Source: Bacteroidales bacterium
GTDB taxonomy: Bacteria > Bacteroidota > Bacteroidia > Bacteroidales > NBLH01
Length of the DNA stretch: 44,310 nt
Assembly (NCBI GenBank): GCA_016937695.1
Contig: JAFGWC010000137.1
Location: 1-44,310 of the forward strand
Reading direction: 5' to 3'
Of the stretch, positions 17,354 to 32,727 are shown in pieces (within the stretch, counting starts at the first letter, position 1; each line of letters starts with the position of its first letter). Position numbers and translations under genes: made by a program. A model generated the notes under the pieces. It did not search any database. It saw only the letters and a program-made list of their open reading frames with translations, and was not told the DNA's origin.

Positions 17354-19063
17354 TTAATCAAGTTTTAGAATTACTTTTTCTATTTTCCCATTAATATAGT
17401 TTGCATCGTATATTAACTTACCAATGCTATTATATTTTTTAAATCTACCTTCTTTGCTATTGTTTTTATAATTAATTTCACTTTCTGGTTTCCCGTTTGA
17501 GTACCAAGACATCCATTTTCCTTCTTTTTTACCATCTTTATATGCTTCAAATCTAACTTTAAATCCTCCTTCGATATAATATGTCCAAAAACCGTCTCTG
17601 ATTCCATTTTTATATGCTCCTTCAACATTTATTCTTCCATCTGCAAAATATGTTACATAAGGGCCGTTTTGTATTCCATTATTGAATCCTTCAACAAGTT
17701 TATTCAAACCATTTTCGTTCCAATATCTTGAAACGCCATTTTTTATATTTTCTTTATAGTATATTTCATACTTTTGTTGTCCGTTTTCGTACCATGCTTT
17801 CCACTTTCCATCCATTTTACCATTATGGAAATTTCCAGTCATTTGAATTTTTCCTGATTCGTACCAGGATTGCCAAGGACCTTCTTCTTTTCCATCTTCA
17901 AAATTTCCTTCATAATATTTTTTGCCGTTTTCGTAATATACAATCCAGTTACCATCTTTTTTGTCATTTTTAAAATTTCCTTTTTTCCATTCGTAACCGT
18001 TTGAATACCAATACGTCCAAAATCCATTCATTTTTCCTTTTGAATATATTCCTTCGTTTCCTTTTTGTCCGTCTGTTCGCCAATATGTCCATTTCCCTTC
18101 TTGAACATCATCAATAAAATTTCCTGATATGTCTAATTTTCCATCTTCAAGCCACCATTGTGCTTGTCCGTTTTTTTTACCGTTTTTAAACTCTATTTCA
18201 GTTGATAAATTTCTATTTTGGTACCAAAATTTATGAATGCCTTCTTTTATTCCATTTTTGAATTGACCTTCAAATTTTTTTTCGCCTGTTTCCCACCAAA
18301 ATATCCAAACTCCGTCTTTTTTGCCAACTTTTAATTGGCCTTCCATCTCCAATTGTTCGTTTTGATACCAAATTCTATTTATTCCATTTGTGTAATTCAT
18401 CTCTGTCCAGCGGTTTCCGTTTTCGTACCACGAAAGCCATAATCCTATTTCATTATTTTCAGAATAAGAGCCTTTTTTAAGTATTTTTCCACTCAAATAA
18501 TAACTTGTCCATAGTGAATCTTTTTTTCCATCTTTATAAAAACCTGTTTCTTTTATTTTTCCTTCTGGATATATTTCTTTATAAAAGCCATTGCCATTTT
18601 TGACTAAAGTATCGCCAAGTGTCGACCACACATTAATTACTTTCATTTCGCCATTTGAAAAGAAATATTCTTCTTTAAATTTTCCTTCTTTTTCATTGTA
18701 ATAAGTCCAAATGCTGTCTTTTAGGTCTTTTTTATAATAGCCTTCTGTTTTTATTTTGCCTGTTTTATACCATTCAAGATATTTTCCATGCTTAATTCCG
18801 TTTTTCAAATATCCTTGGTTTTCTTTTTTCCCGTTAGTGTAAAAATATGTTACTCTTCCGTTTGGAACTCCAAAATTATATTCGGTTTCGCGGACAAGAT
18901 TTTCCTGATCATCCCAAAATTTCCATAATCCTGTTTCTTTGCCAGTATTTGTCATTAATCCTTCAGAGCGTTTTTTCTTATTTTTCCAATATTCAGTTTG
19001 TACTTCTTGCGAGTATATATTAGAAATGCCAAGTATTAATATTATTGTCAGAATTAATTTCAT
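17354..19063 (-). CDS. Secreted YwqK-type MORN-repeat protein
   Basis: 569 residues. Residues 1-18 are a signal peptide ending at ISNIYSQ. The rest is about twenty tandem repeats of roughly 23 residues with the pattern G.w..Wy.nGk...eg.fknGkkdG, such as GNWIVYYENGKKYYEGNF. This is the MORN_2/YwqK repeat, which forms an elongated beta-sheet. Family members are often labelled toxin-antitoxin YwqK antitoxins, but here a secreted repeat protein of unknown binding partner is the safer reading. It lies between the STAS-like gene and the first PorE-like gene, with 60- and 89-base gaps, so co-transcription is possible. Confidence 0.85.
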   Translation of the reverse strand: MKLILTIILILGISNIYSQEVQTEYWKNKKKRSEGLMTNTGKETGLWKFWDDQENLVRETEYNFGVPNGRVTYFYTNGKKENQGYLKNGIKHGKYLEWYKTGKIKTEGYYKKDLKDSIWTYYNEKEGKFKEEYFFSNGEMKVINVWSTLGDTLVKNGNGFYKEIYPEGKIKETGFYKDGKKDSLWTSYYLSGKILKKGSYSENNEIGLWLSWYENGNRWTEMNYTNGINRIWYQNEQLEMEGQLKVGKKDGVWIFWWETGEKKFEGQFKNGIKEGIHKFWYQNRNLSTEIEFKNGKKNGQAQWWLEDGKLDISGNFIDDVQEGKWTYWRTDGQKGNEGIYSKGKMNGFWTYWYSNGYEWKKGNFKNDKKDGNWIVYYENGKKYYEGNFEDGKEEGPWQSWYESGKIQMTGNFHNGKMDGKWKAWYENGQQKYEIYYKENIKNGVSRYWNENGLNKLVEGFNNGIQNGPYVTYFADGRINVEGAYKNGIRDGFWTYYIEGGFKVRFEAYKDGKKEGKWMSWYSNGKPESEINYKNNSKEGRFKKYNSIGKLIYDANYINGKIEKVILKLD

Positions 19064-19152: not shown

Positions 19153-21159
19153 TTAATTATTATTATTGTTATTTAAAAAATCATTTACAATAACTTTTGC
19201 TTTCGGGTATTTATCTATTATTTTTCTTAATTGAATTTCGGCTTCCCATTCATAAATATATTCTCCAACGTAATAAATGTATGTGCTTTTGTTGTTTATA
19301 TGTTCCTTAACATCTTCAATATCAGAAAAATATGATAGAGCTTGTTTTGTTTGAGAATCTGCTAGTTTTATAGAATAAATTTTATTTTTAATTATACTTG
19401 AATCATTTTGTGTAATATTTTGATTATTATCAAAACTGTTTAATTCAATTGAATTTACAAAAGATATTGAATTAGATTTTGGATTTGAAACTATTAGATT
19501 AGTTTTAAATTTGTTATTTGTTATGTTTTTATAAAATTGAATGTTGCTTTTAGGAATTACAATAATATCATCTAAGTTTACTATTTGATCTAAAACTAAT
19601 ATTGAACCTCCTGGATTTGAGTCGATTATATTTTTGTGTATAATTATATCATCATAAAAATAAGTGAAATTATATTTTTTCCCTGCTTTTAAAATATATT
19701 GATATTTGCCGGAGTTTGGAAAATTTTCTGCTTTAATAATAGTATCAAAATCATTTTCTTCGAAAATTACTATTTTCAGGTTTTTTATTGAATCTTTTTC
19801 GTTAAATATTAGTTTTCCTCTGATTGCAATATAATCATTTCTTCCAATAGTATCTAGCTCTATTTCAAACACATCGCTATTTCCTTTTCCGCCAGTTCTT
19901 TTCGAAGAAAAATATGCTTTTTTCCCTAATCTCATAGGGATATAAAAAAAATCGTCAAAAACTGAATTAATAGGCATTCCTAAATTAATTGGTTCTGTCC
20001 AATTTCCGGTTTTATCTTTAACACTTGCGAAAATATCAAAATCGCCGATTGAATTATGACCTTTTGATGAAAAAAATAATGTTCCGTTTTTGTGCAAATA
20101 TGGCATTTCTTCATCATATATTGTATTAATTTTATTGCCAAGATTTTTTGCATCGCCCCAAGCGCCATCTTGTTGTTTTTCAGATATATAAATATCTGTG
20201 CCGCCTAAAGAACCTTTTCTGTTGCTTGTGAAAAAAAGAAATTTTCCATCTGGCGAAAAACTACCATTTGTTTCTTGATATTTTGTGTTAATATTTGAAT
20301 TAAACTTTTTAGGCAACGACCATTGATTCGAACTATTTTTTTCGCTTAAATATAAACTTCCTTTTTGTTTGTCAATTCTTTGAATTATCATTTTTGAAGC
20401 ATCTTCTGATAAAAAACAAGCTTTTTCATGACTTAAAGTGTTAATTTTATTGCTTATTTCAACTGGATTTTCCCATACTTCTTCTTTAAACGATGATTTA
20501 TAAATATTTTCATCATATTCCCCATCTATTTCTTTTTCGCTTTTATTAATTGATGGTTTTTTTCTGCTAGTAAAAATTATTTCTTTTCCATTTGAATTTA
20601 TTAAGGGGAAATAATCTGAATATTTTGAATTTATATCTATTAAGCTTTCAATTTTTAGATTAATTTTAGATTTAGATATTAAATTGGCATTTTGACAGTA
20701 ATTTTTTAGTCGTAATGCTGCGTTTTTAAATTCAATCTGATGTTCGGGAATTTTATTAATGGAAGAGTCTAATATTTGAATTGCTTTAGAGAATTTGTTG
20801 TTTAAATGATATGCTTTTGCTAAATAATAAAATGCTTCGGCAGGTGCATTATTTTTATCATCTGTGCTTTTTAGTGATATAGAATTTTCTAAATAACTTA
20901 ATGAGGTTTCTTTACCATATTCAGTGTTTAAATAGCAAAATCCGATTAAAAAATTTAATCTGGAATTGTTGTTTTCGTTGATTAACAATCTTTTGTATAA
21001 AATTAAAGCTCTTTCAAATTTATCTTCTGCTAAAGCTTCTTCGGCAAGTTTTTCAATTTCATTTTTGCTTAATTCTTTATCAGAAACAGTTCTTTGAGCA
21101 TTTAATTCAAAGGATTTTAATAATAAAATACAGAATAATATTTTAAAAAGCCATTTCAT
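19153..21159 (-). CDS. PorE-like TPR/beta-propeller protein with SPOR-like end and no OmpA domain
   Basis: 668 residues. A signal peptide (1-21, ending FELNAQ) leads into TPR-like helices (about 30-170). Five PD40-type propeller blades follow (about 175-435), for instance SFSPDGKFLFFTSNRKG and LGGTDIYISEKQ. A carboxypeptidase-regulatory-like beta domain starts near 443. The last part (YIYYVGEYIYEWEAEIQLRK, then FPKAK-like KYPKAKVIVNDF) looks like a divergent SPOR domain, which in other proteins binds denuded peptidoglycan. It ends in a poly-Asn tail. T9SS protein PorE and the two paralogues at 27492 and 30565 carry an OmpA-like domain that is missing here. A periplasmic or outer-membrane scaffold role is inferred. 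Confidence 0.85.
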   Translation of the reverse strand: MKWLFKILFCILLLKSFELNAQRTVSDKELSKNEIEKLAEEALAEDKFERALILYKRLLINENNNSRLNFLIGFCYLNTEYGKETSLSYLENSISLKSTDDKNNAPAEAFYYLAKAYHLNNKFSKAIQILDSSINKIPEHQIEFKNAALRLKNYCQNANLISKSKINLKIESLIDINSKYSDYFPLINSNGKEIIFTSRKKPSINKSEKEIDGEYDENIYKSSFKEEVWENPVEISNKINTLSHEKACFLSEDASKMIIQRIDKQKGSLYLSEKNSSNQWSLPKKFNSNINTKYQETNGSFSPDGKFLFFTSNRKGSLGGTDIYISEKQQDGAWGDAKNLGNKINTIYDEEMPYLHKNGTLFFSSKGHNSIGDFDIFASVKDKTGNWTEPINLGMPINSVFDDFFYIPMRLGKKAYFSSKRTGGKGNSDVFEIELDTIGRNDYIAIRGKLIFNEKDSIKNLKIVIFEENDFDTIIKAENFPNSGKYQYILKAGKKYNFTYFYDDIIIHKNIIDSNPGGSILVLDQIVNLDDIIVIPKSNIQFYKNITNNKFKTNLIVSNPKSNSISFVNSIELNSFDNNQNITQNDSSIIKNKIYSIKLADSQTKQALSYFSDIEDVKEHINNKSTYIYYVGEYIYEWEAEIQLRKIIDKYPKAKVIVNDFLNNNNNN

Positions 21160-21238
21160 CTTATGTAAAACGATTAACAGTATTTTAATTATTATATTTT
21201 ACTAAAAAAATATTATTTTAGGAAAATATATAAATAAA

Positions 21239-21418
21239 TTAATTTGCTGTCTTATTTTTAAATTTTAGTACAATTTTTCGAATAATTTCAATAATTATAC
21301 TTACAGCAATGAAAATGCCAAAAAAGAAAATAAATTGAGTAAAACCTTCGATATTTAACTCATTTACAAGCCAATATCCTAATATTGCAGAAATTATTAT
21401 TCTAAGAATGTTTGTCAT
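21239..21418 (-). CDS. Small two-helix membrane protein
   Basis: A 59-residue frame fills the gap between pbpC and the PorE-like gene. It starts MTNILRIIISAILGYWLVNE, continues through a short polar turn (LNIEGFTQ) into a second long hydrophobic helix, and ends with a basic tail (IIRKIVLKFKNKTAN). Two helices in a hairpin with a positively charged end fit a small inner-membrane protein. No family is recognised. The regular hydrophobic/basic pattern makes chance unlikely. Flanking gaps are 79 and 103 bases with no other structure seen. Confidence 0.6.
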   Translation of the reverse strand: MTNILRIIISAILGYWLVNELNIEGFTQFIFFFGIFIAVSIIIEIIRKIVLKFKNKTAN

Positions 21419-21521
21419 ATATAATTATAATAGTTTTAAGTATTATTAGAAAAATTTATTGTTTAGTATTAAAGAATAAATTTAAATGTAAAATATTTTA
21501 ATAAATTATATAATTTTGTAA

Positions 21522-23870
21522 TTAAAAGTTAATCATTTTTACTGAAATATAAACATTTGAATTCCTTCCTTTATCATCGGTACACGAAATTTTAATTTTC
21601 CCGGATTGTGGTTTATAAAAAACGCTTTTGGTTGGCAATTCTGCTTTTAAAAATTTATCGTTTACATACCAAAAAACTTTATTTACATCATTTGCAGCAT
21701 TACAAGTAAGCATTATTTCAGTAGAATCTGTTTTATCTACAAAATACTCAACATTATTAACCGGCGAAGTAATTTCGGGTATATTTTCTGCAAATACTCT
21801 TTCACATTTAGGGTTATGTTTTGGGATTTTTATGTATTTTACTTGTTGTTTTTCATAATAAGTAATCATTTCCGGTTTATAATTTGGATAAAAGGCTTCA
21901 ATATATCCGTTTTCCGGCAAACAGCTTGTACAGTATGAGATTGTAGAATCGGGCGAAATATATACTTTTTTTAAGTGATTACAAATATTTGTTGATGATA
22001 CTTCCGGAATATATGCATCAATTATTAAATTTTTGCAAAATGAATTAGGAATCAGTCCAGATTCTGAGCAGACCATTCTAAAATCAATTTTCTCAGGTTG
22101 TTCGTAAAAATCATTTTTAGATTTATAATCAATTGTATTGAATATTTCAAATAGGAGTGGAGATGCTGATTCTGAACCACTTAGCTCTTGAACTCCTTCT
22201 GATGAAAAATTTCCTACCCAAACTCCTATTGTATAATCTTTGTTGTATCCAATACTCCATGCGTCTTTTCGTCCATATGATGTTCCTGTTTTCCACGCAA
22301 CTTTTGGTAAATCTGCACTGTTTTGCCATTCTAAAGGTAAATCAGGACGCTTTACTTGTGTTAATATTTCGGTGAGCATATATGCTGATTCTGTTGATAT
22401 AATATTAAATCCTGTGTTAGAAGTGTCTGATTTTAACCAGTTTACATCCGTAAATACTCCTTGATTTGCAAATGCATGATAAAGCATGGTTAATTCTTCT
22501 AAAGTAACACCGCAGCCACCTAAAACTAAAGAAAGACCAAGTTTTGATTCGTCTTTTCGTATTTGATTAAAATTTACTTTTTTTAATGCTTTAATGAAGT
22601 TTTCTGTTTTATAAGAATTTAATATTTTAACAGCAATAATATTTAATGAGTTTATTAATGCATTACTAACAGTAACAATTCCATGATAATCAGAATCGTA
22701 ATTTTTTGGTTCGTAACCGCTATAATTTACAGGAACATCAGTAATTTTTAATTTTGGGGTTATAAGTCCTTTATCAAATGCCAGAGCATATAAAAATGGC
22801 TTTAAAGTACTTCCGGGCGAGCGAATAGCTTTTATTCCATCCACTTGTCCGGCATCTTCTTTATTTGAAAAATCTGCTGAACCAATATATGTAATTATGC
22901 TGTTTGTATTATTATCGATGATTAGTACTGATGCATTTTTTATATTGTTGGAATACAGACGATTAATATAGTTTTTGACAATATTTTCAATTTTTATTTG
23001 TTTTTTTAAGTCTAAATGTGTGTATATATTTGGTTTATCGGCAAACATGCGCCTTAGTCTGAATGAATATTGAGGTGCTGATTTTGGTGATATGTGTCTG
23101 GAAGCTGTTAATGGTTCGTTTAGTGCATCGTTAATATCTTGTTTTGGAAATAATTTAGCTTTTTCAAATCGTTTAAGCCAAAGGTTTCTTGATTTAATTA
23201 TCATTGCGTTATCTTTTCCTAAAACCAGAGAATTTGGTCTGTTTGGAATTATAGAAAGTGCTGTTAATTCTGCAAGACTTAAGTGATTTGGTGCTTTTTC
23301 AAAATAAAGAATTGATGCCGCTTTTACGCCTTCAATATTACCTCCGAAAGGAATTATATTTAGGTACATTTGAAAAATTTCTTCTTTACTAAAGTGCATT
23401 TCTAATTGAAAAGCTCTAAACATTTCAATTATTTTATTAAAATAAGTTCTGTTTTTTGGTTCTAGTAATCGAGCAACTTGCATTGTAATTGTTGATGCGC
23501 CTGATGTTCTTTTTTGCTTTAGAATATTATTTGTTGCAGCTCTTATTATTGCGGCCAAATTTACACCAGGATGATAATAAAAATATTTATCTTCTTTGAA
23601 AATTATCGCTTTTTCGAGTAATGGTGTAATTTCATTTATTTCTGTTTTCATTCTCCATTTGTCGTCGTAACTTAAAAAAGCATGAACTACACTGCTATCT
23701 GAAGAATTAATTATTGTTGAGTATTTTATATTTATTTTGAAAGGGAAAGCTAAATCTAACAATAGAAATAGTGCTAAAACTATTAATATTGCTGATATAA
23801 ATTTTCGAAAAGAAATTGGTATTTTAAACCAGTAAAATTTAATTTGTTTTAAGATAATTGTGATATCCAC
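21522..23870 (-). CDS. pbpC: Penicillin-binding protein 1C
   Basis: 782 residues, the usual PBP1C size. After one membrane helix (about 24-42) comes a GT51 transglycosylase domain with FKEDKYFYYHPGVN (catalytic Glu at 93) and RTSGASTITMQVARLL (121-136). The transpeptidase domain carries the SxxK motif STLK with nucleophile Ser354 (after IRSPG) and KTGTS at 527-531. The C-terminal 80 residues (ITSPVNNVEYFV on) form the BiPBP_C beta domain that marks PBP1C. It polymerises and possibly crosslinks peptidoglycan at the inner membrane. Unlike in many bacteria, no alpha-2-macroglobulin gene adjoins it. It starts 4 bases after the tethered HTH gene. Confidence 0.96.
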   Translation of the reverse strand: MDITIILKQIKFYWFKIPISFRKFISAILIVLALFLLLDLAFPFKINIKYSTIINSSDSSVVHAFLSYDDKWRMKTEINEITPLLEKAIIFKEDKYFYYHPGVNLAAIIRAATNNILKQKRTSGASTITMQVARLLEPKNRTYFNKIIEMFRAFQLEMHFSKEEIFQMYLNIIPFGGNIEGVKAASILYFEKAPNHLSLAELTALSIIPNRPNSLVLGKDNAMIIKSRNLWLKRFEKAKLFPKQDINDALNEPLTASRHISPKSAPQYSFRLRRMFADKPNIYTHLDLKKQIKIENIVKNYINRLYSNNIKNASVLIIDNNTNSIITYIGSADFSNKEDAGQVDGIKAIRSPGSTLKPFLYALAFDKGLITPKLKITDVPVNYSGYEPKNYDSDYHGIVTVSNALINSLNIIAVKILNSYKTENFIKALKKVNFNQIRKDESKLGLSLVLGGCGVTLEELTMLYHAFANQGVFTDVNWLKSDTSNTGFNIISTESAYMLTEILTQVKRPDLPLEWQNSADLPKVAWKTGTSYGRKDAWSIGYNKDYTIGVWVGNFSSEGVQELSGSESASPLLFEIFNTIDYKSKNDFYEQPEKIDFRMVCSESGLIPNSFCKNLIIDAYIPEVSSTNICNHLKKVYISPDSTISYCTSCLPENGYIEAFYPNYKPEMITYYEKQQVKYIKIPKHNPKCERVFAENIPEITSPVNNVEYFVDKTDSTEIMLTCNAANDVNKVFWYVNDKFLKAELPTKSVFYKPQSGKIKISCTDDKGRNSNVYISVKMINF

Positions 23871-23874
23871 AATA

Positions 23875-24339
23875 TTATTTCGAATTAAAATAGAGTATTA
23901 AAATAAATCCTATAATCAATAAAACTGAAATGAAAATTCCAATTATTGTTTCCCAATAACTGGTTTTTTCAAAATTAAATTTGTATTCTTCGGATAAAGG
24001 CTTGTTTGACAGTGTTTTACCATTAGCGTTTTTTACAATTCGTTCAGTTATTTCATCTGCTAAAACATCAACAGTTATAAATTTATTTTCTATTTCTAAT
24101 TCGATATCATTTTCTGAATTGCTTTCTTTTGAAATATCGTTAATAATATCTTCTTTTTCAATATCAATTAATTTTTCTTCTTCCGGCGGATATGTTTCAA
24201 GAAGAAAATCTTTATCTATTAAATATTGACTATTTTCAACTTTTACGTATTCTGTACGAATTCTCTTTTTACAAAGTCGATATATTGTTGTTTGGCTTTT
24301 TCCTGTCAGCTCAATTGCTTCTTTAACTGAAATAAACAT
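23875..24339 (-). CDS. Membrane-tethered helix-turn-helix protein
   Basis: 154 residues. Residues 1-52 (FISVKEAIELTGKSQTTIYR, then LCKKR... and YLIDKDFLLE) match the MerR/excisionase-type winged HTH: a helix, a turn, a recognition helix and a wing. A Glu/Asp-rich linker follows (about 53-125). The C-terminus is one membrane helix (about 131-150) ending in a short tail, so the DNA-binding end faces the cytoplasm. Only 4 bases separate it from pbpC downstream, so the two are almost certainly co-transcribed. A candidate -7 TAATTTTG (minus strand, 24369-24376) lies about 30 bases upstream. Coupling wall synthesis to transcription is an attractive but unproven idea. Confidence 0.8.
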   Translation of the reverse strand: MFISVKEAIELTGKSQTTIYRLCKKRIRTEYVKVENSQYLIDKDFLLETYPPEEEKLIDIEKEDIINDISKESNSENDIELEIENKFITVDVLADEITERIVKNANGKTLSNKPLSEEYKFNFEKTSYWETIIGIFISVLLIIGFILILYFNSK

Positions 24340-24622
24340 ATGTTAAGTTTAAAGTAATTAATGCATTCCAAAATTAACAAAATTTATCGTAAAGATAAAA
24401 TATCTATAGAAATCTTGTTTAAATAGCGATATAAGAAAATTTTTATTTTCAAAATCACAAAAGATTAAAAATAAAATTCTAACAAATATCAATCCTTAAA
24501 TTTAAAAATATTTAAAAAATTGATATCAATATTATTTTGTTAAAGGATATAGTTTTAATCTTTCTTTATATTTTCAAGTTTCAGTTTTCAAATTGTCGAT
24601 GTTTAAATAGTGTTGACCGTTT

Positions 24623-25738
24623 TTACTTTTTACTTTTGTTTTTAATAATTCGGTAGCCAATTCCCCATTCAACAAAATCGGCAGCAGCCCAATATGTTTT
24701 TAAATTTAAACTTATAATTAGTTTATTATCAAATCTATAGCTTAATCCAAATCGATTGTAGCTTGTTTGAAAAGATCTTGCGCGACCAATTATATAAACT
24801 CCCATTTGAGTTGTAAATGACATTTTTCCGTAAACAAAATCGTAAGAAAAATGAGCACCTGAATAAAACATTTCTGTATTTGTGGGATTTTCAATTCCTT
24901 CATTTTTTAAGATTTCAATTCGTGATTTATCGTAAAAAACATCAATTCCTATTCCAAACATTCCTTTGTTTGAAAATTGCCTTTTTGCATTAATTGAAAG
25001 GCTTGAAATTGGATACATTGTTTCTCTGGCAGGTGCAATATTTTTAAATCCACTTGATAGAATTACGGAATATTCGTATTGCTTTTTAAATTTTGGAATT
25101 TCGGAACAAATCTTTGTATAGTTATCATGAAAATTATAATTGAAACCTGTTTGAAATGATACAATATTGAAGCCTTTGTTTGGTTGCCATGTTCCACCAT
25201 TTGAATAATGAGTAATTCCAAATCCAAAAGTTATAAATGTTTTTTTTGCAATTTTTAATTTAGATTCCAGACTTAAATTTATGTAAACATTTAAGTGTGA
25301 GCCAATTGCAATATTGTATTTGTTGTCATATAAATCATATTTTTTATTAAGCCATGCAATACCTTCAGAGAATTTATAGCTTAAAATAAATTTATTGCTT
25401 TCAATAATCGGAATACTTATATAAGGAAAAATTGCGTTTACTTTTCCCAGTAAATCAGGATTTCCTAAATCTGCGTAATAATATCCCAAACCTAATGTTG
25501 GATATTTATAAATTTGTTGCCAGTTTTTATCGCCTTTTGTTCTAAATCCGATATTTGTTTCAAAAGCTTTTACATAGTCTTTTATAAAGTATTTAAAAGA
25601 TTCGTGATGTGCATAAATATATCCGGATGAATATTTTGCTGATATACTTATGTTTTTAGTTGAGTCTATGTTTTGAGAATTGCTTTTTATTTGAAAAAGA
25701 ATTGTTATAATTAAAATTAGAGAAATATTTTTGTTCAT
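24623..25738 (-). CDS. PagL-like acyloxyacyl hydrolase / lipid A deacylase, outer membrane
   Basis: 371 residues with a signal peptide (1-22, ending KSNSQ) and alternating polar/aromatic strands typical of a beta-barrel. GFGITHYSNGG places H177 and S179 in the PagL catalytic arrangement (HxS), followed by PNKGFN; this motif defines the lipid A 3-O-deacylase family in Bacteroidota. It would trim acyl chains from lipid A in the outer membrane. It is longer than enterobacterial PagL (about 185 residues), as usual for the Bacteroidota acyloxyacyl hydrolase branch. It starts 6 bases after the GIN lipoprotein gene and closes a three-gene unit. Confidence 0.82.
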   Translation of the reverse strand: MNKNISLILIITILFQIKSNSQNIDSTKNISISAKYSSGYIYAHHESFKYFIKDYVKAFETNIGFRTKGDKNWQQIYKYPTLGLGYYYADLGNPDLLGKVNAIFPYISIPIIESNKFILSYKFSEGIAWLNKKYDLYDNKYNIAIGSHLNVYINLSLESKLKIAKKTFITFGFGITHYSNGGTWQPNKGFNIVSFQTGFNYNFHDNYTKICSEIPKFKKQYEYSVILSSGFKNIAPARETMYPISSLSINAKRQFSNKGMFGIGIDVFYDKSRIEILKNEGIENPTNTEMFYSGAHFSYDFVYGKMSFTTQMGVYIIGRARSFQTSYNRFGLSYRFDNKLIISLNLKTYWAAADFVEWGIGYRIIKNKSKK

Positions 25739-25744
25739 TCTTTT

Positions 25745-26470
25745 TTACTTTTTTATCAATTTTCCGCTGCCTGTATGTTCTTTAATTTCAATGTTATACG
25801 GATTTCCTGAATAATAAATATTTCCCGAATCTAAAATATTAACATCAAGTAAACCATCTGTTTTAACATAGATATCGCCCATGCTTTTGTTATATGCATA
25901 GCAAGCTTCGGTTAAAACTTCTTCTGCATATATAAATGAGGAATATAATGCATATACATATAGTTTTTTAGATTTTCCTTTTAATATATAATCGCCAGAA
26001 CCAAACCATATTGCTAATTTAAATACTTTGCTGTTAATTGTTAAATCGCAATATCCAATTTGTGATTCAAATCTTATTGATAATGAAGGAGTTACTAATG
26101 TGTCGATTGAATATAAATTTGCTGCATCGTAAACTATAAGCTGTGTTAAAGTGTCAAAAGTGATATATAAATTTTTATTGGCATAGCCTTTAATAAAATC
26201 GCATTTATTTAAATCGTTAATTGTTAAAACATCATTTTTAACAACTGTTTCAATATTTGGAATTATATTTTTTCCGGCTTCAATTTCAATTTTATTTTCT
26301 ACTCCCGATTTTAAGTAAACATTAAAAACTCCATAAAGTTCAATTTGCTTAAAATCAGCAGTTTGTCTTTCAATTTTAACAATTTCTCCCGAAGAACTCA
26401 GGCAATTATTTTCACAAGAATTCAAAAAAAATGATAATATGATAATAAAATAAGCGGCTAAATTTTTCAT
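25745..26470 (-). CDS. GIN-domain (DUF2807) lipoprotein
   Basis: 241 residues. The N-terminus is a lipoprotein signal with lipobox LNSC and acylated Cys at position 19. FKQIELYGVFNVYLKSG and IIPNIETVVKNDVLTIND are the opening of the GIN domain (putative auto-transporter adhesin head), a right-handed beta-helix. The later repeats (LSIRFESQIGYCDLTINSK, SGDYILKGKSKKLYVYAL) fit that fold. It should sit on the periplasmic side or on the cell surface. It lies between the radical SAM gene (16-base gap) and the PagL-like gene (6-base gap). Function unknown. Confidence 0.85.
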   Translation of the reverse strand: MKNLAAYFIIILSFFLNSCENNCLSSSGEIVKIERQTADFKQIELYGVFNVYLKSGVENKIEIEAGKNIIPNIETVVKNDVLTINDLNKCDFIKGYANKNLYITFDTLTQLIVYDAANLYSIDTLVTPSLSIRFESQIGYCDLTINSKVFKLAIWFGSGDYILKGKSKKLYVYALYSSFIYAEEVLTEACYAYNKSMGDIYVKTDGLLDVNILDSGNIYYSGNPYNIEIKEHTGSGKLIKK

Positions 26471-26486
26471 TGATAATTTATAATTT

Positions 26487-27377
26487 CTATAATCCTCTTT
26501 GCCATTCTTCTCTTAGATTAACTTTGTCAGGATTTTTAATTGTATAGTTTAATTTTTCTAATAAACTTTGTTTGTCTTTTGATAAAATTCCTTTTAAAAC
26601 AAGATAATTTGACGCATGATCGCTTCTAAAAACAGTTTGATTTAATTCTGTTTTTGATAAAAATAACTGCATTTCTTCGAGCAGTTGTAAAATATTCATT
26701 TCAACATATTCTGCATTAAATTTTTGTTTAAAATGATTTATTCCAAAAGGAAAACTCAAAACTAAAGTTGATAAAAATTCCGGTTGAATTAAATTAACAA
26801 GTTTTGCCGAATTTTCGGCATGTTGTTGCCAATAATTAAGTCCGCCGAGTCCGTTTAAAATCATTACCGAACTTTTAATTCCGGCTTGGTTGCTTTTTAA
26901 AAGTCCTTGTAACGAAGAATCAAAATTTTCTCCTTTATTTACTATGCTAAGTAGTTCATTATCACCAGATTCTAAGCCAACATAAACTAAAGTTAAGCCA
27001 GCATTTTTCAAGCTTTTTAATTCATCAATATTTTTATTTTTTAAGTCTTTTGGTTTAGCATAAGCTGATATTCGTCTTACATTTGGGAAAGTTTTATTTA
27101 TTAATTCAAGAATTTGTAACAGTTTATCGGTTTTTAAAACCATTGCATCGCCATCGGCCAAAAATATTTTGTTTATTTTTTCAGAATAGCCTTTAAATTG
27201 CAATATTTCTGATTTAATTAAATCAAAACTTTTTATTTTAAATTTTTTCTGAGTATACATTTCGCAAAAAGCACAATTATTCCACGAACATCCACTTGTA
27301 ATTTGAAAAATTAGCGAATTGGCTTCGCTTGGCGGCCTAAAAAGCGGATATTCATATTCTATTGATGGATAATGCAT
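26487..27377 (-). CDS. Radical SAM protein with CX4CX2C cluster motif
   Basis: 296 residues. The cluster cysteines are C30, C35 and C38 in TSGCSWNNCAFCEMY, a CX4CX2C spacing that differs from the classical CX3CX2C but occurs in a known COG1032-related family. The downstream KIFLADGDAMVL region corresponds to the SAM-binding GGE-like motif, and LTLVYVGLESGDNELLSIVNKG is typical of B12-less radical SAM proteins of this group. It lacks a B12-binding domain and has no C-terminal TRAM domain. Substrate unknown. It heads the unit with the GIN lipoprotein and PagL-like enzyme, though a functional link is not established. Confidence 0.85.
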   Translation of the reverse strand: MHYPSIEYEYPLFRPPSEANSLIFQITSGCSWNNCAFCEMYTQKKFKIKSFDLIKSEILQFKGYSEKINKIFLADGDAMVLKTDKLLQILELINKTFPNVRRISAYAKPKDLKNKNIDELKSLKNAGLTLVYVGLESGDNELLSIVNKGENFDSSLQGLLKSNQAGIKSSVMILNGLGGLNYWQQHAENSAKLVNLIQPEFLSTLVLSFPFGINHFKQKFNAEYVEMNILQLLEEMQLFLSKTELNQTVFRSDHASNYLVLKGILSKDKQSLLEKLNYTIKNPDKVNLREEWQRGL

Positions 27378-27491
27378 TTTAATTCAGAAATTTATGAATG
27401 AAAAAATAAAAGATTTGCAAATATTTTGTAATCAATTTTACTGCAAAAATATTTGAAATTTGTTTACAAACAATTAGTATTTTTTGAAAAT

Positions 27492-29840
27492 TTATTCTTT
27501 TTTTAATTTTGCAGGAAAATATTCTGAAATTTTTCTAATATAAGCATCAATAAAACCTAGTTCTATAATTTTTTCTAGCTCTTTTTTCGCTTTTTTTAGT
27601 GTTTTAAATTCTCCAGTCGAGTATTTATATAAATTTCCTGTAAAAAACATTTGTAAATTTTCAATTTCTTTAAAATATTTTTGACTTATTGGTTTGCTGT
27701 AAGCACCTAATTGAATGGTAAATACAGAGTCTAATCTTGCAATTTCATTTTCAATTTCTTTGTTATTTGGATTTATATCATAAACAGCAGGGATTTTAAT
27801 TTTTCTGAATTTAAGCTTTTGTTTAGGGTCATTTATGATTTTAAATTCAACTCTTCTGTTGTAAGGTAATGATTGCCAGATATATGAGCCATCTTTATAT
27901 TTGTTTTTTGTTAGCTGATTTTTAACTCCATTACCTTTATATGATATTTGTTTTTTATTAACACCTTGAGAAATTAAAAAATTTGCGACTATTTTTGCTC
28001 TTTTGTCAGATATTTTTAAATTATATGATTCGGGTCCCTGAGTATCGGAGTATCCAATTAATTCTATTTGTGCTTCAGGATTTTCTTTTAAATAATTTGA
28101 TAATTTTATTAAGTTATCTTTAAAATAATCGAGCTGAAAACTGTTTACTTTAAATAAAATATCTTCTACATAAGTTACATCTGTTTCATAAGTAATTGTA
28201 TTGTCGTATTCAACAATATCTTTATTTATTGCAATTTCTTTTTTTCTGCCAATTATATTATCACAGTTTTTATCCCCAACTAAAGAAACTGTTTTGTAAA
28301 TTATCTGAAAATCAGAGTCTTCGCCTATATAAAAATTTTCTATATGTTCATCATTATCATTAATTTGATATACTGCTTTGTAATTTTTTCCTTTGTTTAA
28401 AACAAACAAATATTTTCCTGTTTTGCTGTTTGGTTTATAATATCCTTCAATTTCGGAGCTTTCAGAGTCAAAAACGCTAATTTGAACATTTTCAATATCA
28501 TAATCGCATGCTTCAACTTTTCCTTTTATCACGGCAAGTGATTTTTCTTCAGCTTCAGGTAAACCCATTAAATAAATATCAGAATTTCCAAAACCATCGC
28601 TTTTAATCGAAGAATAATAGGCTCTTTTACCATCTGGAGTTAAAACGTAAAAAGCGTCATCGCCGACTGTATTTGCCGGATATCCAAGGTTTTCCGCCTC
28701 TGCCCAGGTACCAAATTCATTTTTTTTGCTGATAAAAATATCGTAGCCGCCAATTGTATTATGTCCTTTAGAGCTAAAGTAAAGACTTATTCCATCGTGA
28801 TGAATAAATGGTCCTTCTTCATCTTTTTCGGTGTTAATTCCGGCGCCAAGGTTTTCTGCTTTTCCCCATTCGCCATTTGCTTGTTTTTCAGATATATATA
28901 TATCTAAACTGCCATATCCGCCAGGCCTGTCTGATGTAAAATATAAATATTTTCCATCGGCAGACAATGAAGCATGAGTTTCTCTGAATCGTGTGTTAAT
29001 ATGAGGACCGAGGTCAACAGGAACGGACCATTTATCGCCGGTTAAATAACTAGTTAATATTGTTCCGCCCTCTACATCTCTATATATAAAAAGTTGCTGT
29101 CCATCTGGCGAAATGCCTATTGAAGCCTCATGTGCCTCAGTATTTATATTTTCACTAATGCTAATCGGTTTTGTCCAATTTTGGTTTTCGAAATAAGAAA
29201 TGTAAATATCTTCGTTGTATTGTCCGTCTAGTTCTAATTTTTCATTTTCATGCCTTTTTCTTCTCGATGTAAATATTAAAACTGTTTCATCTGCTGATAT
29301 TACCGGGCTATGATCTGAATATTCTGAATTTATTGTTTGGTTTAATATTGTAATTTGTGTTTCTATTGGATTTTGTGATAATTTTAATCCTGATTCGCAT
29401 TGACTTGATTCATAGTTAATTGCATCTATTACTTCTTTGTTTTTAACATGATGTTTTAGTTTGTTTAATATATCAATAGACTTTTCAAATTGGTAATTTA
29501 AATGATAAGCTTTGGCTAACTGAAATTTAGATTCTATTGCTTCGTTTGATTTTGGATTGGTTTTATCAAAAATTTCTACTGATTTAATAAGGAATGGAAT
29601 AGATTTTTCTTTTCGTAGTATTGTATTTAAATAACAATATCCTAATTTAAAATTTAATGTAGCATCGTTTGGCGAATGTTTTAAAAGAGCAGTTGCAAGT
29701 TGAATAGCTTCATCATAATTTGCTTCATTGATAAATGCATCTAGTTCATTATCAGTATTTTGAGATAAAGAGTTAAAATTTATTAAAACTGCAGTAATTA
29801 TTAATAAATATTTAATGAATGTATTTTTGTTTTTTTTCAA
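27492..29840 (-). CDS. PorE-like protein: TPR, beta-propeller, regulatory, OmpA and SPOR domains
   Basis: 782 residues. Signal peptide 1-26 (ending NSLSQ), TPR helices (about 30-165), five PD40 blades (about 170-430, such as GQLLFIYRD-type and LGSLDIYISEKQANG), a carboxypeptidase-regulatory-like domain near 435-500, an OmpA-like peptidoglycan-binding domain (about 558-667, with ELIGYSDTQGPESYNLKISD and NRRVEFKI) and a C-terminal SPOR domain (about 704-770, FTIQLGAYSKPIS). The first four modules are the layout known for PorE, which ties the type IX secretion system to peptidoglycan; the added SPOR domain gives a second wall-binding module. It lies 187 bases downstream of the GNAT gene. T9SS involvement is inferred from domain order. 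Confidence 0.9.
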   Translation of the reverse strand: MKKNKNTFIKYLLIITAVLINFNSLSQNTDNELDAFINEANYDEAIQLATALLKHSPNDATLNFKLGYCYLNTILRKEKSIPFLIKSVEIFDKTNPKSNEAIESKFQLAKAYHLNYQFEKSIDILNKLKHHVKNKEVIDAINYESSQCESGLKLSQNPIETQITILNQTINSEYSDHSPVISADETVLIFTSRRKRHENEKLELDGQYNEDIYISYFENQNWTKPISISENINTEAHEASIGISPDGQQLFIYRDVEGGTILTSYLTGDKWSVPVDLGPHINTRFRETHASLSADGKYLYFTSDRPGGYGSLDIYISEKQANGEWGKAENLGAGINTEKDEEGPFIHHDGISLYFSSKGHNTIGGYDIFISKKNEFGTWAEAENLGYPANTVGDDAFYVLTPDGKRAYYSSIKSDGFGNSDIYLMGLPEAEEKSLAVIKGKVEACDYDIENVQISVFDSESSEIEGYYKPNSKTGKYLFVLNKGKNYKAVYQINDNDEHIENFYIGEDSDFQIIYKTVSLVGDKNCDNIIGRKKEIAINKDIVEYDNTITYETDVTYVEDILFKVNSFQLDYFKDNLIKLSNYLKENPEAQIELIGYSDTQGPESYNLKISDKRAKIVANFLISQGVNKKQISYKGNGVKNQLTKNKYKDGSYIWQSLPYNRRVEFKIINDPKQKLKFRKIKIPAVYDINPNNKEIENEIARLDSVFTIQLGAYSKPISQKYFKEIENLQMFFTGNLYKYSTGEFKTLKKAKKELEKIIELGFIDAYIRKISEYFPAKLKKE

Positions 29841-30027
29841 CTTAGTTATTTTATTGCTTTTATATGATTATAAATTTAAGCTAAGTTTTTTTTTATAGCA
29901 AAATTAAATCTCAATAATTTTATAAAAGCCTTGATTAATTTTATAAACAAACCACTACAAAGCAATTATTTTATAAGTTGGTATAAATATTATGTTTATA
30001 TAATAAATAATAAATAAATTGGAATTT

Positions 30028-30558
30028 TTATTTTTTGATATTTTGAAGGAAAAAAACATTTTCAAAAGTTTCAGAAGTCTTTTTCCAGCTTATTAATTTG
30101 CCACTTATTAAAAAGTGCAGGTTTTGAAATAGCTTTAGGCTGGAGGTGTTTTTTTCACTAATTTCGCAATATAATTGATTTAAACCCAGATATTTAAATG
30201 AATAATTAATAATGATTTCTAGTGATATTCCGGCATATCCTTTTTTCCTGTTTTCGCTATCGGCAATTAAAATTCCTATTCCTGCTTTTAGATTATAAAA
30301 ATCTATATCAAATAAATCAATTGTTCCAATTGCTGAATTATCAATTTTATTTATAATTATTAGTCTTAGTTGTTTTGTTTCAAAAATATCTTTGTTCGAG
30401 TTTTCAATATATTGTTTTAAAATATATTTTGAATATGGTACAAGCGTATTGCTGAATTGCCAGTTTTCCGAGTTGTTTTCCCATTTATATAGCAATTCCA
30501 AATCTTCGGGCTCAATAGCCCTAAGTTTTATAATATTGTTTTCCAATAAATTCGACAA
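30028..30558 (-). CDS. GNAT-family N-acetyltransferase
   Basis: 176 residues, cytosolic. The RimJ/RimL-like opening IKLRAIEPEDLELLYKWENN is followed by GTIDLFDIDFYNLKAGIGIL, then the acetyl-CoA-binding region ENRKKGYAGISLEI, where RxxGxAG is the GNAT motif A. The end (LNQLYCEISEKNTSSLKLFQN) is motif B. It acetylates an unknown amine, perhaps a protein N-terminus or an amino sugar. It starts 6 bases after the stop of the PorE-like gene upstream, so it is probably co-transcribed with it. Confidence 0.9.
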   Translation of the reverse strand: MSNLLENNIIKLRAIEPEDLELLYKWENNSENWQFSNTLVPYSKYILKQYIENSNKDIFETKQLRLIIINKIDNSAIGTIDLFDIDFYNLKAGIGILIADSENRKKGYAGISLEIIINYSFKYLGLNQLYCEISEKNTSSLKLFQNLHFLISGKLISWKKTSETFENVFFLQNIKK

Positions 30559-30564
30559 ACTCTT

Positions 30565-32727
30565 TTATATTTTAGTTTCTGTAGTGTTAGATTCTGATTT
30601 TTTATAATTATTTCTGTAGTTTTTATTTCTAAAGTCTAACGGAATGTTTTGAATTGGTTTTACAAGCAAACTAGAATTACCTTGTTTATTAACTCTAAAT
30701 TCAATTCTTCTGTTAAATTTTTGAGCTTCTGTATTCCATGTTCCATCCGGATTTAAATTAATTGCGATAGGATTTTCTTCACCATAACCAACAACTATCA
30801 TTTGTTCCTCTTTTGCACCTTTTCTCATAAGGTAAAGTTTTACTACATTCCCTCTTTTTAATGAAAGTGCTTGATTATAAATGGCTTTGCCTTTAGAATC
30901 TGCATATGCACCAATTTCAATTACTGTATTTTGATTTTCTTTTAAGTATTTAGCTAAAGCTTTTAGGCTTTTACTGTCTGGTACTTCATCTGCATTATTA
31001 AATGGAAATAAAATATTTTCTATTTTAATGTTTTCATCATATACAATACCATTTTCATCAATATTGTCAATATTAATTCCACCGGCAAATTCTTGTTCTT
31101 CCATCAATTGAAGTTCATTATCAGCACATGGCGGATCAACAGGAATTTCAATAACTTTATATAATTGTTGATATGCTGCTTCTTTCGGAACATAAAGTTT
31201 TTCAGATAAAATTAACTTTCCGTTCGATTCAAAAAGCACATTGTATTTTCCGTCTTTATTTAAAACAAAAAGGAATTTTCCTGATTTTGAATTAGGTGTG
31301 TAAATTCCAATTACTTCATCATTGCTGGCATCCATAACTGTTATTGACACTTCAGGTAAATTTCCTCTGCAAACAAAAATTTTACCTGTCATTATTGTAA
31401 TTTTTGTTTTTTCAGCTTCTTTAAATTTGATTACAAAAATGTCTGATTTACCATAACCTTCATTTTTGTTAGATGTGTAATATGCTTTTTGTCCATCTGC
31501 AGAAGGAACAAAAAATACATCATCTGAAGTAGTATTTATTGGAAAACCAATATTCTCTGGTATTGTCCATGTTCCAAACTCATTTAAAGAACTTTTAAAT
31601 ATATCAAAACCGCCAAGTCCGCCATGGCCTTTTGAACTGAAATAAAGTGTTACTCCGTCTGGATGTATATATGGAGCTCTTTCATCTGATTCTGTATTTA
31701 TTGAAGGGCCCAGATTCTTAGCTTCACTCCATTCGCCGGAAATAAGTTTATGTGCAACGTAAATATCTAATCCGCCGTAGCCTCCTTTTCTGTCGCTTGT
31801 GAAGTATAGTTTATTTCCATCTGCCGATAATGATGCGTGTGTTTCTCTATATTTTGTATTTATTGTTGGACCTAGTTTCATGGGTACAGACCATTCTTCG
31901 CCATTTAATTCACTAACATAAATACTTCCTTCGTCTTCAGATTTATATATATAAAGTTGTTGTCCATCTACCGACAAGCCTATTGATGCTTCATGTTCTG
32001 AAGTATTTATATTTTTACCTATACTTATTGGGTAAGTCCAACCTTCTTCTTTTCCATAAGAGACAAATATATTTTCAGAATATTCTCCATCACTTTCCAT
32101 TTCATCTCCAATATCTGTTTCTCTTCTTGATGTAAATATTAAAATTGATTCATCACCATTAATTATTGGACTATGATCTGAAAATTCAGAGTTTATTGAA
32201 TCTCCGATGTTTTCTATTTCTATTTTTTTAGCTTGGCTTGTTAAATTTTTACCTTCAATACATTTAGTTATTTCATTATTAATAATTAGCAGAAGTTTTT
32301 TATTTTTTGTTTGTTCTGTTAATTTTTCGTACTGAGATATGGCTTCGTCAAAACGATAGTTTGATTGATATGCTTTTGCTAAATAATAACTTGTTTCAAG
32401 AAATTGGCTCGATTTCTTCTTTTTTTTACTTAATATTTGTACCGATTTTTCAATATAATCAATTGCTTTTTCTTTTTCGTGTGCAGTATTTAAATAACAA
32501 AATCCTAATTTGAAATTTATTTGTGCATTATTAGGGTCTTCGTCCAACATTCGTTGATATAGGTTAATTGCACCTGTGAAGTTTTCATTGTCGATATAGT
32601 CATCGGCAATATAAAATAAATCATTTTGCTCTTGCGATTTAAGCGATATTGGTATAAGTATAAATAAATTTATAAAAAATAATATCGAAAAACTTATTGT
32701 GGTAAAATTAAATTTTTGACCTTTCAT
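30565..32727 (-). CDS. PorE-like protein: TPR, beta-propeller, regulatory and OmpA domains
   Basis: 720 residues from the ATG at 32727. That start is preferred over an in-frame one at 32808 because it gives a clean signal peptide (MKGQKFNF, then a hydrophobic core ending SLKSQ); the longer form would bury it behind a basic extension. TPR helices (about 30-165) lead to five PD40 blades (about 170-435, such as SLSADGNKLYFTSDRKGGYG), a regulatory domain near 442-505 and an OmpA-like domain (about 567-680, EIGAYADSKGKAIYNQALSL, NRRIEFRV). A short Ser/Asn-rich tail follows. This is the PorE architecture without a SPOR domain. It is the third of three related genes here and precedes the GNAT gene by 6 bases. 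Confidence 0.9.
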   Translation of the reverse strand: MKGQKFNFTTISFSILFFINLFILIPISLKSQEQNDLFYIADDYIDNENFTGAINLYQRMLDEDPNNAQINFKLGFCYLNTAHEKEKAIDYIEKSVQILSKKKKKSSQFLETSYYLAKAYQSNYRFDEAISQYEKLTEQTKNKKLLLIINNEITKCIEGKNLTSQAKKIEIENIGDSINSEFSDHSPIINGDESILIFTSRRETDIGDEMESDGEYSENIFVSYGKEEGWTYPISIGKNINTSEHEASIGLSVDGQQLYIYKSEDEGSIYVSELNGEEWSVPMKLGPTINTKYRETHASLSADGNKLYFTSDRKGGYGGLDIYVAHKLISGEWSEAKNLGPSINTESDERAPYIHPDGVTLYFSSKGHGGLGGFDIFKSSLNEFGTWTIPENIGFPINTTSDDVFFVPSADGQKAYYTSNKNEGYGKSDIFVIKFKEAEKTKITIMTGKIFVCRGNLPEVSITVMDASNDEVIGIYTPNSKSGKFLFVLNKDGKYNVLFESNGKLILSEKLYVPKEAAYQQLYKVIEIPVDPPCADNELQLMEEQEFAGGINIDNIDENGIVYDENIKIENILFPFNNADEVPDSKSLKALAKYLKENQNTVIEIGAYADSKGKAIYNQALSLKRGNVVKLYLMRKGAKEEQMIVVGYGEENPIAINLNPDGTWNTEAQKFNRRIEFRVNKQGNSSLLVKPIQNIPLDFRNKNYRNNYKKSESNTTETKI

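Follow-up and report, generated by a model that had tools for sequence, protein, structure and literature searches.

Three TPR-propeller proteins of a Bacteroidales genome with different OmpA- and SPOR-type ends

Introduction

A 44,310-nucleotide contig of a Bacteroidales bacterium (GenBank JAFGWC010000137.1, assembly GCA_016937695.1), hereafter the window, encodes three proteins, P0001, P0002 and P0003 (Table 1), in which tetratricopeptide (TPR) repeats and a β-propeller are followed by different C-terminal ends. An earlier note on this DNA read them as three forms of PorE, the protein that links the type IX secretion system (T9SS) to the cell wall. Does one scaffold really exchange its wall-binding ends here, and is that scaffold PorE? 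We find that ends are indeed exchanged, with examples across the order, and that a T9SS role of the trio is not supported. With moderate confidence, we instead take the three proteins to be paralogues of a fused CpoB-TolB-Pal-like Bacteroidota family, the wide PorE/CHU_0125 family, acting as tethers that have diversified by their wall anchor.

Proteins of similar domain order are numerous: the study of PG1058 reports 424 of them in 174 species, with 2–13 copies in some species and C-terminal extensions in some homologues, and the string 'spor' is absent from the available text of that article (PMC5053529). In a 2025 paper, PorE is interpreted as a fusion of CpoB, TolB and Pal, and PorE-like proteins are put forward as tethers that may traffic to the septum (PMC12204202). 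In addition, loss of CHU_0125 is reported to damage outer-membrane integrity and to raise vesicle release sixfold (PMC5891637).

Results

Shared scaffold and OmpA ends

All three genes are complete open reading frames (ORFs) on the minus strand. Pfam finds TPR-like matches in each product and PD40 repeats that total 52.2, 114.6 and 110.3 bits in P0001, P0002 and P0003, respectively. The five PD40 blades that the earlier note assigned to every protein are recovered as five stretches in P0002 and in P0003 and as two in P0001, at the lax limit of E 10. The full-length model of P0001 (mean predicted local distance difference test score, pLDDT, 73.3) contains a TPR helix bundle, a propeller, a β domain at residues ~443–528 and a folded end, with a low-confidence linker at 534–591, and its top Protein Data Bank (PDB) matches by Foldseek are TolB. 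The β domain, said to be common to the trio, appears as predicted strands in the P0001 model only, and Pfam lists a CRD family for none of the three proteins. The scaffold common to all three is TPR plus a TolB-like propeller. Of the PorE-type order, TPR, propeller and OmpA are seen in P0002 and P0003; OmpA is absent from P0001, and a CRD is visible only as those predicted strands of P0001.

The ends differ as had been claimed: OmpA in P0003, OmpA followed by SPOR in P0002, and a SPOR-type end without OmpA in P0001. The OmpA family PF00691 is passed by P0002 (60.7 bits) and P0003 (54.8 bits; Pfam cut-off 27.2) and has no Pfam match in P0001. In PorE, diaminopimelate is held by Asp576, Asn584 and Arg591 (PMC7192894). 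The resulting D-x7-N-x6-R spacing is kept in P0002, P0003 and 58 of the 60 OmpA-bearing rows of the tree described below, as counted by a pattern search in the second half of each protein. The pattern is not seen in a P0001 relative of genome G016 that bears OmpA (L141 6038-8176, row L059) and whose OmpA site may be degraded.

A simple pattern finds no lipobox at the three N-termini, its sole match lying in an upstream TTG extension of P0003. The pattern is likewise missing from the PorE that this genome does have (identified below), and a lipid anchor was therefore dropped as a discriminator.

SPOR-type end of P0001

PF05036 has no Pfam match in P0001 and scores 13.9 bits in P0002, under the Pfam cut-off of 21; the five Pfam SPOR matches of this genome include neither protein. 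We built a profile from 34 SPOR domains detected by Pfam in this genome and its relatives and ran it on 14 protein ends. P0001 scores weakly (12.5 bits, E 1.1e-4 over the 14 ends), its orthologues in G006 and G022 reach 17.9 and 10.4 bits, and that of G005 is missed (4.2 bits). Five P0002-type ends score 17.4–24.5 bits, and five P0003-type ends at most 3.2 bits. A second profile, built for the subtype without the P0001 clade, scores P0001 at 55.0 bits (E 2.8e-16); among 1000 shuffles the highest score is 11.5. This profile is not fully independent, because its 59 domains were gathered through a P0001-clade query and a local profile including that clade. The 34-domain profile and the fold comparison are fully independent.

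Modeled alone by AlphaFold2, residues 585–668 of P0001 reach a mean pLDDT of 84.6, with 92–95 in the core, and are predicted to form strand-helix-strand-strand-helix-strand. In VIA-align, whose output warns that middling Z values are common, this model matches the SPOR domains of CwlC (Z 7.3), RlpA (7.1; 66 residues, 2.3 Å), DamX (6.6) and DedD (6.0), and unrelated folds reach at most 4.9. The fold evidence covers the P0001 end only, as a predicted model.

The end might alternatively be a small ferredoxin-like domain that merely resembles SPOR. Such an origin would fit the silence of Pfam and the Foldseek search with the end alone, in which no match reaches E 0.001 and the four best matches are not SPOR. 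It would not explain the 55 bits of the leave-out profile or the rank of the SPOR structures above unrelated folds; a weaker argument is that the best three PDB matches of a mixed profile (P0001-type ends plus ordinary SPORs) are CwlC, FtsN and DamX. We regard this alternative as very improbable and conclude that the P0001 end has a predicted SPOR fold with divergent sequence. The SPOR-like end assigned earlier to the 668-residue protein is thus borne out by profile and fold, with a plain Pfam search silent.

Glycan-binding site

SPOR domains recognize septum-enriched glycan; that of RlpA uses Q270 and the arginine patch R302, R309 and R311, and FtsN Q251 and R285 are the counterparts of Q270 and R309 (PMC6895207). 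We placed these columns via the FtsN alignment. P0002 keeps both, as Q710 and K739. In P0001, K598 stands at the position of FtsN Q251/RlpA Q270 and I628 at that of FtsN R285/RlpA R309, and in its clade the glutamine is found in one of four members and the basic residue in none. Among 30 other propeller proteins, the last SPOR domain has the glutamine in 26 and arginine or lysine in 25; counted over all 59 SPOR domains of these proteins, the numbers are 41 and 40. Judged by these residues, binding of denuded glycan, which the earlier note ascribed to the SPOR ends, is plausible for P0002 and doubtful for P0001.

The P0001 clade has an invariant pattern of its own, Y-Y-x-G ... W-E-A ... R ... 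P ... N-x-F, comprising Y629, Y630, G632, W638, E639, A640, R645, P652, N659 and F661 in four genomes of two families. Therefore, the domain appears to be kept for something.

Relation to PorE and the T9SS

The NCBIfam PorE model NF052230 (cut-off 600) scores P0001, P0002 and P0003 at 182, 230 and 268 bits, all below half of the cut-off. The best-scoring named family for all three is CHU_0125 (NF053607; 190, 243 and 282 bits), whose cut-off of 620 no gene of this genome passes. Another gene of the genome, G000:C60:15867-17789, passes the PorE model with 690 bits, and GldM is present (407 bits, cut-off 180); the genome therefore has a T9SS with its own PorE. No T9SS component is recognizable among the eight neighboring window genes scanned.

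The proposal that the trio are three PorE forms fixing T9SS machines to different wall zones draws on the PorE domain order shared, as far as tested, by P0002 and P0003, and on the presence of a T9SS in the genome. The scores of the trio, the separate gene that does pass and the lack of T9SS neighbors speak against it. We rejected the trio as T9SS PorE on the cut-off and the separate PorE gene, and consider the proposal improbable.

Exchange of ends across the genome and the order

The genome contains 16 propeller genes, and the earlier note overlooked that its trio makes up three of them. By local profiles, 12 of the 13 others carry OmpA and one carries neither domain; none has SPOR. For a wider view, a tree of the TPR and propeller regions was built from 182 candidates, of which 166 had uncut ends and 82 remained after repeat removal; the PD40-OmpA gene of this genome on C48 (L010) is outside the tree, being below the propeller-span limit. 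With O for OmpA and S for SPOR, the 82 rows comprise O 36, none 11, OSS 10, OS 8, S 7, OSSS 6, SS 3 and SSSS 1, where 'none' means that local profiles found neither end; four of these 11 rows, with lengths of 614–960 residues, may have ends that escaped the profiles. End type changes at least 21 times on the tree, compared with a mean of 42.9 for shuffled labels.

P0001 groups with genes of G006 and G005 (support 100) and G022 (91). Near this clade (support 83) are an OmpA gene of G016 and a G035 gene with a borderline SPOR (15 bits), both adjoining a GNAT gene. The genus has one clade for P0002 and another for P0003 (99 and 99), both within a 15-row set that includes genes of three other families (94). 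Monophyly of the three genes, whose failure the earlier note named as a refutation, is neither supported nor rejected: the free tree does not unite them, and a tree constrained to join their clades is 25.5 log units worse and is not rejected by the approximately unbiased test (p 0.176).

The P0001-type end is matched in 123 of 393 genomes of the order (E 0.001). Of the 26 loci examined beyond the four close orthologues, 22 encode the end and a propeller in one ORF over the stretch covered, and longer stretches add three more (L221, L222, L233). At E 1e-4, 33 of 295 genomes drawn from the class match the end, namely this one and 32 outside the order; of the 29 loci examined from outside-order genomes, two have the propeller in the same ORF.

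Different ends also occur side by side. Of 60 regions fetched, 38 remain when 20 of this genome and two fetched for a lytic transglycosylase (SLT) are excluded. Fifteen of the 38 hold at least two propeller genes with complete ends, and in 13 of these the ends differ, in eight families; O–OSS–none sets occur in G039 and G152. Because regions were chosen by a match to P0001, P0002 or the SPOR end, 13 of 38 is a biased figure and not a genome-wide rate.

Several arrangements beyond the trio deserve mention. Short propeller proteins (517–537 residues) in which no anchor was found adjoin long genes with OmpA and two or three SPOR domains in three families (L137 in G039, L218 in G152, L219, L222, L223), and are possibly soluble partners of the anchored form. 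Elsewhere in this genome, at G000:C128 (L117 1550-2587 and 2633-4684), a 345-residue protein with a Pfam-level SPOR is encoded directly upstream of a propeller-OmpA gene, so that the same two modules are split over two proteins. A 970-residue propeller protein of G196 (L229 2183-5095) has four SPOR domains without OmpA. In G004, the P0002 orthologue (L129 7134-9767) has its SPOR doubled, as two similar domains in tandem.

Gene neighborhoods

The three genes belong to two loci. Locus A, with the order family 2 glycosyltransferase (GT2)–P0003–GNAT–P0002, is also present in G003, G004 and G006; in G003 and G006, one more ORF separates GT2 from P0003. In G002, the contig breaks off within P0002, following P0003 and GNAT. 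In G001 the P0002- and P0003-type genes are on separate contigs, and G005 has no P0002 orthologue at E 1e-80. P0002-GNAT-P0003 is hence found in three of six same-genus relatives, plus a fourth cut by the contig end.

Locus B consists of penicillin-binding protein 1C (PBP1C) and P0001. Orthologues of P0001 occur in G003 (cut by the contig end, with its C-terminal end outside the contig), G005, G006 and G022. PBP1C lies upstream in G003 and G006, with an SLT gene between, which places PBP1C near P0001 in three of the five genomes having P0001 or an orthologue. The SLT gene is directly upstream of the orthologue in G003, G006 and G022, again three of five. This SLT family occurs in five of 60 genomes (E 1e-25) and adjoins P0001 in the three that have both. 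Of the other two, G016 has no gene like the propeller genes of the window within the 14 kb read, and the G041 region, judging by its ORFs, resembles foreign DNA of high GC content. The position of P0001 beside a wall-building enzyme suggests a part in wall remodeling.

A single conserved operon of the three genes was rejected, as G006 has its P0001 orthologue near PBP1C on a different contig. Trios like that of the window thus do not recur in relatives as one cluster; the P0002/P0003 locus does, with P0001 in a locus of its own.

Ordinary drift among paralogues, with ends shuffled without division of labor and the P0001 SPOR a non-binding remnant, has to be weighed against these data. A genome with 16 propeller genes, the frequent changes of end on the tree and the two altered glycan-site positions in the P0001 clade are what drift could produce. 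The invariant residues of the P0001 end would be unexpected in a dead remnant, and drift does not predict that P0001 should recurrently be linked to PBP1C or SLT, or that neighboring genes with unlike ends should recur in eight families among the regions examined. We consider drift possible and rather unlikely.

Some further features of the two loci were noted. Propeller-anchor genes have a GNAT neighbor not only in this genus but also in G016, G035 and G039 (window 30028-30558; L133, L134, L137, L141, L142). In the PBP1C–P0001 gap, where relatives carry the SLT gene, the DNA is 15.5% GC and holds a 59-codon hydrophobic, membrane-like ORF (21239-21418, minus strand); tblastn found no decayed SLT gene in the gap (21160-21521; best E 0.91). 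The next gene downstream of P0001, in the same orientation, encodes a MORN_2 repeat protein (17354-19063), and a PagL-type lipid A deacylase domain (24623-25738, 43.8 bits) lies between loci A and B. A promoter and terminator scan, with 127 promoter-like sites against 100 expected and six terminator-like sites against five, was not used.

Table 1. Features of the window in and around the three propeller genes
Feature	Position	Strand	Description or basis
P0001	19153..21159	minus	668 aa; signal-like N-terminus, TPR, TolB-like propeller, β domain, disordered linker, SPOR-type end, no OmpA
TolB-like β-propeller of P0001, residues 168-438	19846..20658	minus	local profile; Foldseek top matches TolB
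SPOR-type domain of P0001, residues 592-662, two glycan-site positions changed	19174..19386	minus	AlphaFold2 model, structure comparison, leave-out profile
P0002	27492..29840	minus	782 aa, TTG start; TPR, propeller, OmpA, SPOR
OmpA_C-like domain of P0002, residues 559-669, DTQGPESYNLKISDKR (D-x7-N-x6-R)	27834..28166	minus	Pfam, local profile, pattern
SPOR domain of P0002, residues about 704-772, Q710 and K739 kept	27525..27731	minus	profiles
P0003	30565..32727	minus	720 aa; TPR, propeller, OmpA
OmpA_C-like domain of P0003, residues about 570-680, DSKGKAIYNQALSLKR (D-x7-N-x6-R)	30688..31020	minus	Pfam, local profile, pattern
Penicillin-binding protein 1C, upstream neighbor of P0001	21522..23870	minus	TIGR02073 PBP_1c 699 bits, cut-off 494.2
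Small protein, HTH_17-like N-terminus (below HTH_17 cut-off), upstream of PBP1C	23875..24339	minus	40% identical gene, same place in G003
GNAT acetyltransferase between P0002 and P0003, conserved neighbor	30028..30558	minus	PF13302 60.7 bits; synteny
Family 2 glycosyltransferase upstream of P0003	32946..34895	minus	relative near P0003-type gene in G003, G004, G006, G016

Discussion

Comparison with known systems suggests what the trio may do. Like PorE and PG1058, P0002 and P0003 have the order TPR, propeller and C-terminal OmpA_C-like domain with the diaminopimelate-binding residues, and they belong to a multi-copy family. Unlike PorE, the trio falls below the model cut-off in a genome with a separate PorE, and SPOR ends are added to OmpA or stand without it. 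PorE of P. gingivalis has a lipoprotein signal, whereas the trio and the genome's own PorE show no lipobox by pattern. CHU_0125 of Cytophaga hutchinsonii is the best-scoring named family and shares TPR-PD40-OmpA; the trio scores far below its cut-off, and the available part of the report on CHU_0125 names no SPOR (PMC5891637). In the Tol-Pal system (CpoB, TolB, Pal), TolB is what the propeller resembles in fold, according to the P0001 model, and Pal is what the OmpA end resembles. The trio, however, fuses these parts in one chain without TolB_N, and the parts seen of the paper on the fusion describe no SPOR module (PMC12204202). The C-terminal fold of RlpA, FtsN, DamX, DedD and CwlC is shared by the predicted model of the P0001 end; P0002 keeps the key residues, and P0001 lacks Q and R at the mapped positions. 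In the trio, a propeller scaffold bears the SPOR. In E. coli, PBP1B is stimulated by both DamX and DedD, and PBP1A by DedD (PMC7642682); these are class A penicillin-binding proteins, and P0001 adjoins one of that class, PBP1C. The combination of propeller scaffold and SPOR was not found described in a thin literature search, which was swamped by common words and did not extend to subscription papers or preprints.

Taken as CpoB-TolB-Pal-like tethers, the three proteins probably connect the outer membrane with the cell wall. Judging by its N-terminus, each protein is likely to reach the periplasm by export. The TPR and propeller parts would hold outer-membrane or periplasmic partners, and the C-terminal end would grip the wall. 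In P0003, the conserved residues indicate that the OmpA end should bind the diaminopimelate stem. The SPOR that P0002 adds retains the glutamine used for glycan binding as well as a basic residue, so this protein probably has two ligands, the stem peptide and stripped glycan. P0001, with no OmpA and a changed site in its SPOR fold, would more likely guide or regulate PBP1C and SLT, or hold an altered ligand, than serve as a stem-peptide tether, because its neighborhood, PBP1C and in relatives SLT, is one of wall remodeling. Export, wall binding, partner binding and spatial sorting are what we infer from the architecture, predicted fold, site residues and neighborhoods described above. In addition, TolB_N (PF04052) was not found in this genome at E 0.001 and is unlisted for the three proteins up to E 10; therefore, the fused family may take the place of TolB.

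Several points weigh against this tether reading. TolB_N was found in one Bacteroides control genome, and its absence is therefore not a rule of the phylum. None of the three proteins reaches the CHU_0125 cut-off. No lipobox is apparent that would account for contact with the outer membrane. The top structural match of the P0001 end is 6ozd (Z 8.3), a putative exported protein, and the Foldseek E values of this end to SPOR structures are weak (0.16–0.62; RlpA 0.16, CwlC 0.19). Just 13 of 63 subtype domains begin with the strict QxGA[FY]-like sequence of classical SPORs, which makes glycan binding by the whole SPOR subtype putative. As for the neighborhood, two of the SLT genes match PF01464 partially (25.7 and 27.2 bits, cut-off 21.3), no SLT gene was found in this genome or G005 at E 1e-25, and gene neighborhood is not function.

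A broader picture, which we offer as speculation and would not expect to hold in full, is that in many Bacteroidales one-chain TPR-TolB-like-Pal tethers replace the separate Tol-Pal system and are sorted along the wall by their ends. OmpA would serve the general wall. OmpA plus SPOR would reach stripped glycan at the division site and carry a built-in septal address. SPOR-only forms such as P0001 would have left tethering for partnership with PBP1C and a lytic transglycosylase, their SPOR ligand changed. If this is true, neighboring genes with unlike ends would make up complementary anchor sets. Because SPOR domains recognize glycan enriched at the septum, a SPOR on a PorE-like scaffold would offer a direct way to test the tether with septal trafficking proposed for this family.

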